DNA from: Deltaproteobacteria bacterium
GTDB taxonomy: Bacteria > Desulfobacterota > Syntrophobacteria > BM002
Assembly (NCBI GenBank): GCA_020353215.1
Contig: CP070692.1
Location: 282,133-318,851, forward strand
Direction: 5' to 3'
DNA: 36,719 bases
Shown: piece by piece, positions 12,070 through 15,970 of the stretch
How the letters are laid out: every line of letters begins with the position of its first letter
Position numbering within the stretch: the first letter of the stretch is position 1
Notes under the pieces: generated by a model
What the model was told of the DNA's origin: nothing
The model's database searches: none
Seen by the model: the letters and a program-made list of their open reading frames with translations, nothing else
Program-made: the position numbers and the translations under genes

Positions 12070-12342
12070 TCAGAAGCTTGTCTGAGGGGAAGCATTTCTG
12101 TCCACGGGAGATTCATGGTAAAGTATGGATTTTATCCGCGCCATTGCCCGTCCGATTACCTCCAGCTCAGTACATATTTTGTGCTCGAGACGGACGTTTT
12201 CGGAGAAATTGAAAATGTCCATGGCCAGATCGGGATCAGGAAAAAGCGAACTGAATGCATCGATGGTGGGCAAATCCGGTTTGAGCTCTACTTCATATCG
12301 TGCTTGTATATGCGATAAGAAAGTCTGTTGAAGCTGGATCAA
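12070..12342 (-). CDS. Doubtful 90-aa hypothetical protein, perhaps a gene remnant
   Basis: The frame reads like a real protein, with ordered hydrophobic and acidic residues (LPTIDAFSSLFPDPDLAMDI, then a helical NVRLEHKICTELEVIGRAMA). It has only a TTG start, no ribosome site and no promoter that I can see. Two opposite-strand frames cover the same bases and look worse. It ends 40 bases from the solo repeat end. It may be the 3' part of a gene whose front has been lost. Family not recognised. Confidence 0.35.
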   Translation of the reverse strand: MIQLQQTFLSHIQARYEVELKPDLPTIDAFSSLFPDPDLAMDIFNFSENVRLEHKICTELEVIGRAMARIKSILYHESPVDRNASPQTSF

Positions 12343-12582
12343 ATCTAATTGGTAGGTGCGAAAGGCTATCTGAGCTCACTTGTGAGTGGCCATTAGTGCA
12401 TATAGAAAGGAAATGGTCAGCACTGTCTGGGAAAACAGCGAGTTTGTCGGGCAATTAAATGGTATCGCCATCTGTGTAGCAAGTTTCCCGTTGATTATAA
12501 TCGAAAGTCCAGGGGCACTGAATATTATCTCAAGTTTTCATTGCTCAAGAATGGTGGCTGAAAGTAAAGGAGTAGGAGCAAT

Positions 12583-12607
12583 AAATGGTAGTAAACGACT
12601 ACCATTT
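12583..12607. repeat. Perfect 10-pair hairpin
   Basis: AAATGGTAGT and ACTACCATTT flank the loop AAACG. Four T bases end the right arm, but the sequence then becomes CACCCC. It lies 98 bases upstream of the small gene at 12705 and may be an operator or weak terminator. Confidence 0.45.
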
Positions 12608-12704
12608 TCACCCCATTATTATACCCTTGATTTTTCAGCGATTGCCCCTACCTTTTTCACTGAGAAACGAGAACAAGCGGCATTAGAAACGACAGGAGAT
12701 TGCC

Positions 12705-12908
12705 ATGAATGAAAAAAGAGAGTTTAAAGAAAGGGAAGAAGAGTTGGTTGAGTCTGGATGGGCTGGTCCTGGGATCGAGATTTGGCCGGAAGAGGATGAC
12801 TACACAATGTGGCGGTCAATGAGGACAAATGCTAGAAGGTACTTGGAGTGCAACATTCCAGATTTGGCAGCCAGTCCTTTCTGCGGAAAGGGATACCACA
12901 ACGGTTAG
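12705..12908 (+). CDS. Small acidic hypothetical protein
   Basis: A 67-residue protein with a charged first part (NEKREFKEREEELVESGWAG), two Trp-containing turns (EIWPEEDDYTMW) and two Cys in the C-terminal third (LECNIPDL, SPFCGKGYHNG). AGGAG lies six bases before the ATG, a good ribosome site in a gene-poor stretch. No signal peptide or membrane segment. Family not recognised. It precedes the hsp20 leader, and its transcript probably ends at the 13022-13063 hairpin. Confidence 0.6.
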   Translation: MNEKREFKEREEELVESGWAGPGIEIWPEEDDYTMWRSMRTNARRYLECNIPDLAASPFCGKGYHNG

Positions 12909-12920
12909 AACCGGAATATC

Positions 12921-12954
12921 TTACGACCAAGCGTTTTGTTACGACCATGCGTTT
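12921..12954. repeat. Tandem 16-base direct repeat, 18-base period
   Basis: TTACGACCAAGCGTTT and TTACGACCATGCGTTT, 18 bases apart, differ at one position. They lie just after the small gene and about 120 bases upstream of hsp20. The spacing of nearly two helical turns would suit a regulator that binds as a tandem pair. Confidence 0.5.
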
Positions 12955-13021
12955 GAGGTAGCGCACAGACCATTAGCTGAACACCGTGACAATCAAAAGG
13001 ATTAAATTACATGATAGCCAG

Positions 13022-13063
13022 GGCTCCCATAGGCTGCCTGACCGGTCGCGGGAGCCTTTTTTT
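13022..13063 (+). terminator. Intrinsic terminator-like hairpin abutting the hsp20 ribosome site
   Basis: GGCTCCC (13022-13028) pairs with GGGAGCC (13050-13056), followed by seven T. The 21-base loop can fold further (GGCTGCC region). The T run ends directly against GGGAGG, the hsp20 Shine-Dalgarno sequence, 11 bases before the ATG. It looks like a complete intrinsic terminator, yet any hsp20 mRNA with a normal leader must pass through it. Confidence 0.75.
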
Positions 13064-13074
13064 GGGAGGTCTAG

Positions 13075-13497
13075 ATGAAGTGGTTTCCGGATGATTACCA
13101 TAAAGTTGGAATCGAGAAGACGATGATAATTTATAAAGGATTCTTGCACCGTTTTGAACTTTTTCACATTGACATAAATTCCGGTTGGCGTCCTTTTTTG
13201 GACCTATACGAGACTGAGCAAGATCTCGTTGTGCTGGTGGAGCTGGCAGGAATGCAAGCTGATGATGTGGAAATTAACGTGGGTAGGGAGCGCGTACAGT
13301 TACGGGGAAATCGCTGCCGGCCGTCGGAGCACAAGGTAACTCGTGTCCACCACATGGAGATAGAGTTCGGGCCATATGATCAGATGATCGCGCTTCCTGA
13401 ACCGGTAGACCCCAACGGCTCAACGTCGACCTATCGGGATGGATTTCTAATTATCCGCTTGCCGAAAGAAGTAAAATCCCTGAGGTTAGACCAATGA
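13075..13497 (+). CDS. Hsp20/alpha-crystallin small heat-shock protein
   Basis: A 140-residue protein with an alpha-crystallin domain from about residue 38. WRPFLDLYETEQDLVVLVELAG begins it (cited in part), then ADDVEINVGRERVQLRGNR, a loop with HHMEIEFGPYDQMIALPEPVD and the ending YRDGFLIIRLPK, which matches the family's G-x-L-x-[IV]-x-[LVI]-PK end. The N-terminal arm is short and no IXI tail motif is seen after LPK. Such proteins are ATP-independent chaperones holding unfolding proteins in the cytoplasm. GGAGG lies five bases before the ATG. Upstream is the terminator-like hairpin, which may regulate it; lon follows 118 bases later on the same strand, so chaperone and protease may respond together. 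Confidence 0.92.
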   Translation: MKWFPDDYHKVGIEKTMIIYKGFLHRFELFHIDINSGWRPFLDLYETEQDLVVLVELAGMQADDVEINVGRERVQLRGNRCRPSEHKVTRVHHMEIEFGPYDQMIALPEPVDPNGSTSTYRDGFLIIRLPKEVKSLRLDQ

Positions 13498-13615
13498 GAC
13501 GGAAGAGTGACGGGAATGCGACCATAAAATATTCGTGCAAAGCGATACATGCCGTCTCATTCGAGAAAGGGAGATGATAGATTTTCGCTAAGAAAGCGGA
13601 CTAAGGAGATATTGA

Positions 13616-15970
13616 ATGGCTGATGATACGACCACGCAAACGAAAGCTGATGATGGTTTCAGGGTTCCTGAATCCTTAGCAATCTTGCCGTTACAAAACG
13701 GGGTGCTCTTTCCCGACCTCACGGTGCCACTCATCGTAAGTCGCCCCGACCACATCAAACTCATTGATGAGGTTTTAGTTAAGGACCGATTGCTCGCTGC
13801 AGTGGCGCAGAGGGATGCAGATCTAGAAAAGCCAGCGCTTATCGATCTTTACCGTGCTGGGGTTGCGGCCTACGTATTGAAAATGATGCGCACGCCTGAG
13901 GGTCATTATCAGATTCTGGTCCGGACCTTCAAAAAGATAGGATTATTGGAGTCCGTGCAGGAGGATCCATATCTGACAGCCCGGGTTGAAGCGCTTGAGG
14001 ATAGGGTTCAACCGGGCAACCAACTTGATGCGATGGTTTTAAATGTCCGCAAGCTGTTTCAAAAGTTGGTGGAGCTGGGAAATTTACCACCCGAACTGGC
14101 CATGCTGGCTGCCAATTTGGAAGGACCCTACCCCCTCGTTTATCTAATAGCCACCAATTTGGACTTTAAAGTCGAACAGGCCCAGGAAATCCTCGAGACG
14201 ACAGATGCGGAAAAGGTCCTTGAGCGACTGACCGTTCACCTGAACGAAAGGCTCGAAACCCTCAAGCTCAGTCAGGAAATCCAGAACAAAGTCAAAGAGG
14301 GTATGGATAAAACTCAGCGGGATTATATGCTGCGCCAGCAACTGCAAGCCATTCAACAGGAACTCGGCGAGCAAGACGAACGCACCGTAGAGATCGATGA
14401 ACTCAGAAACAAGCTGCACGAGACAGACATGGACGATGAAGTACGAAGCACTGCGGAGAAGGAACTCGACCGTCTTAGCAGAATGCCTCCTGCAGCCGCT
14501 GAGTATTCGGTGTCCAGAACCTATCTCGATTGGCTCCTCGAGTTTCCCTGGAGAATTAACACCGAGGACAATCTTGACATTGAATCGGCCCAGGCGACGC
14601 TGGATGCTGACCACTACGGGTTGGAGAAAGTAAAAAAGCGCATTGTGGAGTACTTGGCGGTGCGCAAACTCAAACAAGATATGAAGGGTCCGATTATGTG
14701 CTTCGTCGGACCTCCGGGAGTCGGAAAAACCTCTCTTGGACAGTCCATCGCCAGAGCTCTTGGGCGCAAATTCATTCGAATCTCTCTTGGAGGAGTAAGG
14801 GATGAGGCAGAAATCCGCGGCCATCGGCGCACCTATGTGGGTGCTTTACCCGGTCGTGTTGTCCAGGGCATGCGCAAGGCAGAAGCAAACAATCCGGTGT
14901 TTATGCTGGATGAGATCGACAAAGTGGGCACCGACTATCGTGGCGACCCCTCCTCAGCACTGTTGGAGGTGTTGGACCCAGAGCAAAATTATTCGTTTTC
15001 CGATCATTATATGGAGGTACCGATTGATCTCTCCAAGGTAATGTTTATCACCACTGCGAATATCTTAGACACGATTCCACCGGCTTTACGGGACCGCATG
15101 GAAGTCATTGAGCTACCAGGTTACATTGAAGAAGAAAAGCTGATGATCGCTAAGCGTCATCTTGTTCCCAACCAACTCGAGGCGCACGGCCTGACTGATG
15201 GCTCTCTGCAGTTAACTGACGATGCGATTCGTACGATCATACGATCCTATACACGCGAGGCTGGAGTTCGCAATCTGGAAAGAGAGATAGCTTCGGTCTG
15301 CCGTGGCGTGGCCAAGGAAGTGGCTGGTGGGATGGTTTTGTCGATGATTGTTCACCCGGAAGATCTGGAAAAATTCCTTGGACCTGTGAGGTTTATTCCA
15401 GAGGTGGCTGCACGGAGTTGGGGACCTGGATTGGCCACGGGTCTCGCCTGGACCCCGGCTGGAGGGGATCTTATCTTTATAGAGGCAGCGCAGATGCCGG
15501 GGAAAGGTGGGCTGACCCTGACCGGTCAACTGGGTGATGTGATGAAGGAGTCCGCCACCGCTGCGCTCACCTATGTCCGTTCACATGCTGGGGAACTTGG
15601 AATTAACGGCAAGTTTTTGAACGGAACGGACGTTCACATTCATGTGCCGGCCGGTGCTATACCGAAAGATGGCCCCTCAGCCGGGGTCACTATGCTGGTT
15701 ACTCTGGCCTCTCTGGCGACGGGGAGAGCGGTGCGCAAAGATATTGCCATGACTGGAGAGATCACCTTGCGTGGGGATGTCCTCCCCGTTGGAGGCATCA
15801 AGGAAAAGGTCCTTGCAGCGCATCGGGCTGGAATTCGGGAGGTATTGCTGCCACAATTGAATGAGAAGGACCTCTCAGATATACCCGAGTCAATCAGGAA
15901 ATCAATGAGTTTCAAGCTGGTACGAGGTATGTCGGAGGCTCTGGAAACGGCTCTGGAGTCGCACTCATAA
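13616..15970 (+). CDS. lon: ATP-dependent Lon protease
   Basis: A 784-residue protein of full LonA length. The N-terminal substrate-binding domain starts [20 protein letters not shown] helical linker follows, with [20 protein letters not shown]. The AAA+ module has Walker [10 protein letters not shown] (about 364-372) and Walker [10 protein letters not shown] (about 428-436). The protease domain has [10 protein letters not shown] with catalytic Ser688 and GGIKEK with Lys731, at the 43-residue spacing of the known Lon dyad. Lon degrades misfolded and regulatory proteins in the cytoplasm. AAGGAG precedes the ATG. No stop, frameshift or missing motif is seen. It follows hsp20. Confidence 0.98.

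Follow-up and report, generated by a model that had tools for sequence, protein, structure and literature searches.

A conserved terminator-like hairpin abutting the Shine-Dalgarno sequence of hsp20-lon, a candidate attenuator in a deltaproteobacterial family

The rplL-rpoB and rpsU-dnaG operons of E. coli contain internal partial terminators, and RfaH/LoaP-type systems use recruitment hairpins. Naville and Gautheret 2010 (PMC2965389) surveyed transcription attenuators in which a premature intrinsic terminator lies in the 5' leader, and PMC4166951 reviews the RNA thermometers found at small heat-shock genes, among them ROSE, fourU and the Synechocystis hsp17 element. The locus described here lies in a window of 36,719 nt from a deltaproteobacterial genome. 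It resembles the leader attenuators in that a predicted intrinsic terminator, kept in a relative, lies downstream of where transcription of a stress operon presumably begins and ahead of the first codon; it differs from them in that the leader has no conserved antiterminator, leader peptide or aptamer, and the terminator abuts the Shine-Dalgarno (SD) sequence. As in rplL-rpoB and rpsU-dnaG, the terminator is placed between two genes and would set their transcript ratio if the upstream gene is cotranscribed with hsp20. In common with ROSE, fourU and hsp17, the hairpin directly precedes a small heat-shock gene and pairing with the SD is possible on paper, whereas the SD lies outside the main stem, which has a T-tract and gives no Rfam match, and the SD-pairing fold rises with heat. 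Finally, a second copy upstream of an RfaH/UpxY-like gene recalls the RfaH/LoaP hairpins, from which this one differs by its own T-tract and by a link to a specialised NusG paralogue gene that is not conserved.

On the plus strand, a 67-aa ORF is followed by a spacer, the stem-loop, T7, the SD, TCTAG, the hsp20 ATG and then lon (Table 1). The hairpin reads AGGGCTCCC (13020-13028), ATA, GGCTG, CCTGAC, CGGTC, GC and GGGAGCC (13050-13056). The start assigned to hsp20 gives MK.F, which is common to its orthologue and paralogues. An earlier note on this DNA had described a GC stem and T7 just before GGGAGG, 11 bases from the ATG; this arrangement is real, and the positions given for it were right to a few bases.

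Table 1. Features of the hsp20-lon region of the window (G011, the relative with an orthologous hsp20)
Feature	Position	Strand	Basis or remark
67-aa ORF (MNEKREFKE...GKGYHNG)	12705..12908	+	conserved gene; no Pfam/NCBIfam match
27-nt block CCATGCGTTTGAGGTAGCGCACAGACC	12945..12971	+	24/27 (89%) identical in G011
Stem-loop	13020..13057	+	folding; 40/44 kept in G011, no pair broken
Hairpin outer arms	13021-13028 / 13050-13057	+	folding
Hairpin internal loop	13029-13031 / 13048-13049	+	folding
Hairpin inner stem	13032-13036 / 13043-13047	+	folding
Hairpin apical loop	13037-13042	+	folding
T7 tract of predicted intrinsic terminator	13057..13063	+	sequence; kept in G011
hsp20 SD, GGGAGG	13064..13069	+	sequence; AGGGGG in G011
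hsp20, 140 aa, PF00011 (E = 1.2e-12)	13075..13497	+	Pfam match
lon protease gene	13616..15970	+	adjoins hsp20 downstream, in G011 too

Among 13 genomes of the family, some of them incomplete, only one other, G011, which belongs to another genus, has an orthologous hsp20 (67% amino-acid identity). At its locus hsp20 is likewise preceded by the 67-aa gene and the hairpin and followed by lon. The other Hsp20 proteins of the family (about 50% identity) are paralogues, and no hairpin was seen in their leaders. The earlier note had made its proposal depend on conservation of the hairpin in relatives, and in G011 it is conserved: hairpin and T7 together are 91% identical, with three of the four changes at loop positions and the fourth at the stem's outer edge. 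The T7 tract and the 11-nt distance to the hsp20 ATG are unchanged. In contrast, identity is 34% in the spacer 3' of the 67-aa gene, 46% in the spacer between the 27-nt block and the hairpin, and 45% in the SD and start spacer; the hsp20 coding sequence is 73% identical at its beginning and 72% as a whole (308/426). Given the 91% identity and the kept T7 and ATG distance, as against poorly kept spacers, the hairpin and its geometry relative to the ATG are probably under selection. For the SD letters and the leader, comparison with this one orthologous locus suggests no visible selection.

A GC-rich stem-loop directly followed by a U-tract is what characterizes an intrinsic terminator, and both are present. 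The 44-nt element formed by hairpin and T7 folds at -21.4 kcal/mol (z = -2.76), a value matched by one of 200 shuffles, and the G011 copy has z = -3.51 relative to shuffles (all energies compared here were computed in silico). Read on the minus strand, the hairpin is not followed by a U-tract, so the terminator would be one-directional. At 55 C the predicted hairpin still has -12.5 kcal/mol, and at 65 C -8.9 kcal/mol; thermal melting of the terminator was rejected because, according to these folding energies, the stem is stable to about 65 C. We infer from the sequence that the hairpin acts in vivo as an intrinsic terminator that stops transcription.

To estimate how unusual the layout is, terminator-like sites were counted in 437 kb of the source genome and, as a control, in the reversed sequence. 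There were 69 such sites, of which 18 had -15 kcal/mol or lower, versus 48 and nine strong ones in the control; weak terminator-like sites are therefore largely due to chance, and form alone is weak evidence. A different pattern scan takes loops of 3-8 nt only, and hence does not list the hsp20 hairpin itself. In the 437 kb, this hairpin is the only strong terminator-like site directly before an SD and start, the three others located within 40 nt of a possible start all being weak. No promoter fits into the gap between T7 and SD, and any overlapping -10 element would sit in the GC-rich stem (CCGGTCGCGGGAGCC), so that the hsp20 mRNA very probably starts upstream of the hairpin and crosses it. 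The comparison with G011 revealed no clear conserved sigma-70 promoter upstream of the hairpin.

The 27-nt block upstream may be a promoter or operator of hsp20-lon. By eye, a sigma-32-like or sigma-70 promoter in it was rejected, as it has no conserved -10 element. By eye, GGUAGC of the block could pair in the window with GCUGCC of the hairpin loop, a pairing that is lost in G011. No convincing further copy of the block was detected in the 13 genomes, matches with three mismatches being no more frequent than in the control.

On the observed structure, T-tract, conservation and geometry of the hairpin, and on the conserved block upstream of it, we favour a reading in which an intrinsic terminator attenuates hsp20-lon, either between cistrons or within the leader, with a probability of roughly 0.57. 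The terminator would separate hsp20-lon from the 67-aa gene or from a promoter shortly beyond it. Transcripts begun upstream would mostly stop in the T-tract, only the fraction reading through would reach hsp20-lon, and a partial terminator of this kind would limit how much of the chaperone and the protease is made. None of the usual sensors (an antiterminator, an aptamer or a melting stem) was found at the hsp20 leader; constant attenuation, or a factor acting at the hairpin or the promoter, is therefore likelier than a structural switch. In the consensus fold of the two sequences, a comparison of low power with two sequences only, no upstream part of the leader pairs with the hairpin arms. 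Nor is there a conserved, mutually exclusive antiterminator, as the spacers are 34-46% identical and the competing pairing of arm and SD is not kept. Any regulatory leader would have to lie in a spacer that shows no conservation at the one orthologous locus, which counts against an attenuator.

The hairpin could instead be the plain end-of-gene terminator of the 67-aa gene, with a promoter of hsp20-lon overlapping it and its closeness to the SD incidental. The 67-aa protein (SGWAGPGIEIWPEEDDY...ASPFCGKGYHNG) has homologs in seven genomes of the family, including the source (54-81% identity), and none in 43 other genomes of the class that were searched; its gene adjoins hsp20-lon in two genomes. 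Homologous genes usually do end in intrinsic terminators, six of them elsewhere having unrelated ones no more than some tens of bases past the stop codon, which was also counted in favour of the attenuator. The hsp20 hairpin begins 111 nt past the stop, which is beyond the range of these homologues, and the conserved 27-nt block lies between. A -10 element within the stem would be unlike any common promoter, and the exact hairpin-ATG geometry is conserved. We consider this explanation unlikely.

Other copies of the hairpin bear on whether a protein or RNA factor might recognise its apex (GGCUG-NNUGAY-CGGYC) and control readthrough. Using a 44-nt covariance model built from three copies, matches with E below 1e-5 were confined to the family of the source genome, and no match at E <= 1e-5 was obtained outside the family in 395 genomes of the phylum. 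The source genome has a second copy (G000:C1:4539450-4539493; L002:1498-1541; L057:1501-1544), with an RfaH/UpxY-like antiterminator gene 162 nt downstream. At this unrelated locus 19 of the 20 loop bases are identical to those of the hsp20 hairpin, and the stem is altered yet still pairs, the outer-stem pairs covarying through compensating changes; both observations speak for recognition of the apex. However, no close RfaH homologue was found in G011, and the RfaH-like homologues of two relatives (G002 and G010) show no hairpin within 300 nt of upstream sequence; since the association of hairpin and gene is not conserved, the RfaH-like protein itself was rejected as the factor.

Four relatives carry related hairpins about 95 nt downstream of a gene for a 57-aa cysteine-rich protein, one of them in two copies; with the second copy of the source genome, these come nearest to the hsp20 hairpin. 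This is the spacing expected of end-of-gene terminators, and was counted in favour of the terminator reading. In some of these relatives the apical loop has drifted (UGGCCC for UGAY), which again argues against a factor reading the apex, an explanation that we regard as decidedly improbable. A more elaborate form of it, a family-specific terminator whose apex would be read by a trans-acting factor, with stress readthrough occurring without refolding of the leader, is a very long shot. The 57-aa protein (MAEQVCRGDHSGHICVLASCG...CFNCGRVA) is conserved and has no Pfam/NCBIfam match (L034, L036, L037, L058, L146-L154). In several relatives, the 3' region of its gene contains a small hairpin (CAAGG...CCTTG) before the terminator.

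Genomes of the family contain up to nine copies each of a looser form of the hairpin, CCCCATnGGC...GTCnGTGGGG, which almost always has a T-rich tail; the reversed control pattern gave none. Most of these look like ordinary end-of-gene terminators, and the set possibly represents dispersed copies of one element. Conserved G-U pairs are seen among them (L059, L060, L061, L062-L088 and others), and by eye some lie upstream of PilZ-like genes (L060, L101). For 40 loci with related hairpins, Rfam gave only tRNAs, none of them at the place of the hairpin. The one exact loop match in a viral contig (L019) lies inside phage genes, has neither stem nor T-tract and was put down to chance; matches with two or three mismatches (L016, L018) have no stem.

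A transcription start at about 13020 would make the structure a 5'-terminal hairpin shielding the hsp20 mRNA from decay. A weak promoter-like sequence, GTGACA-18-CATGAT (12986-13015), with a predicted start at about 13022, fits this idea. Its score is 9/12, the scan yields fewer such sites than shuffled sequences do, and in G011 this stretch is not kept. Moreover, T7 is not needed for mRNA protection, yet it is conserved, and such a role appears very unlikely.

The last explanation is the one put forward in the earlier note, an SD switch or RNA thermometer, in which the left arm would have two alternative partners, the SD and the terminator arm, one for each state. The alternative pairing is possible, CUCCCA (13024-13029) with UGGGAG (13063-13068) and AGGCU (13031-13035) with AGCCU (13053-13057). 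In a 61-nt fragment at 37 C it is the MFE structure (-24.8 versus -21.4 kcal/mol). With longer 5' extensions the two folds are near in energy and either may win, so that fold probabilities depend on the true 5' end. The duplex of left arm and SD (-14.6 kcal/mol) is stronger than that of 110 of the 114 SD regions sampled in the genome, which makes it unusual in this one genome, and the accessibility of the SD is low, in the 8th percentile.

When 20 nt of coding sequence are included (75-nt fragment), however, the arm-SD fold is no longer the MFE; the terminator stem has a probability of 0.99 at 37 C and 0.94 at 45 C, and the arm-SD fold 0.01 at 37 C, at most 0.05 up to 45 C, 0.30 at 55 C and 0.61 at 65 C. 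Heating would thus close the SD, the opposite direction to a heat-shock thermometer, and SD accessibility stays flat (0.20 at 25 C, 0.21 at 45 C), so that no stem over SD or AUG is predicted to melt with heat in the window. The terminator hairpin is also complete before the SD is transcribed. The near-identical GGGAG copies on which the switch was based exist in the window and are not both kept in the orthologous leader: since the G011 SD is AGGGGG, the duplex there is only -8.9 kcal/mol, near the background median of -8.2, and the arm-SD fold has a probability of at most 0.01. Rfam gave no match at gathering score in the window, and only poor unrelated ones in 12300-13700. What stands of the earlier proposal is a strong, conserved terminator-like hairpin before the SD, plausibly an attenuator; switching through the SD, by two folds or by temperature, is the least probable of the explanations.

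In G011, the SD is predicted to open strongly on heating, from 0.23 to 0.62 between 25 and 45 C, which is matched by 1% of sampled genes. There it would pair with the first codons (UUUU) in a weak stem of another register (L017:1420-1495, minus strand), a weak fourU-like candidate in the model folds that is absent from the window. As the window SD is flat and that of G011 would open via another register, no thermometer common to the two genomes is seen.

Attenuation at hsp20-lon would be one more example of a type of control already known, of interest for the tight conserved geometry of hairpin and SD and for a hairpin sequence shared across unrelated loci. The locus also calls for caution: since GC-rich terminator arms and SDs share short motifs, a single genome can present what looks like an arm-SD switch. 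If the attenuator reading is true, the hairpin would be a simple point at which a chaperone-protease operon of a little-studied lineage is controlled after initiation.
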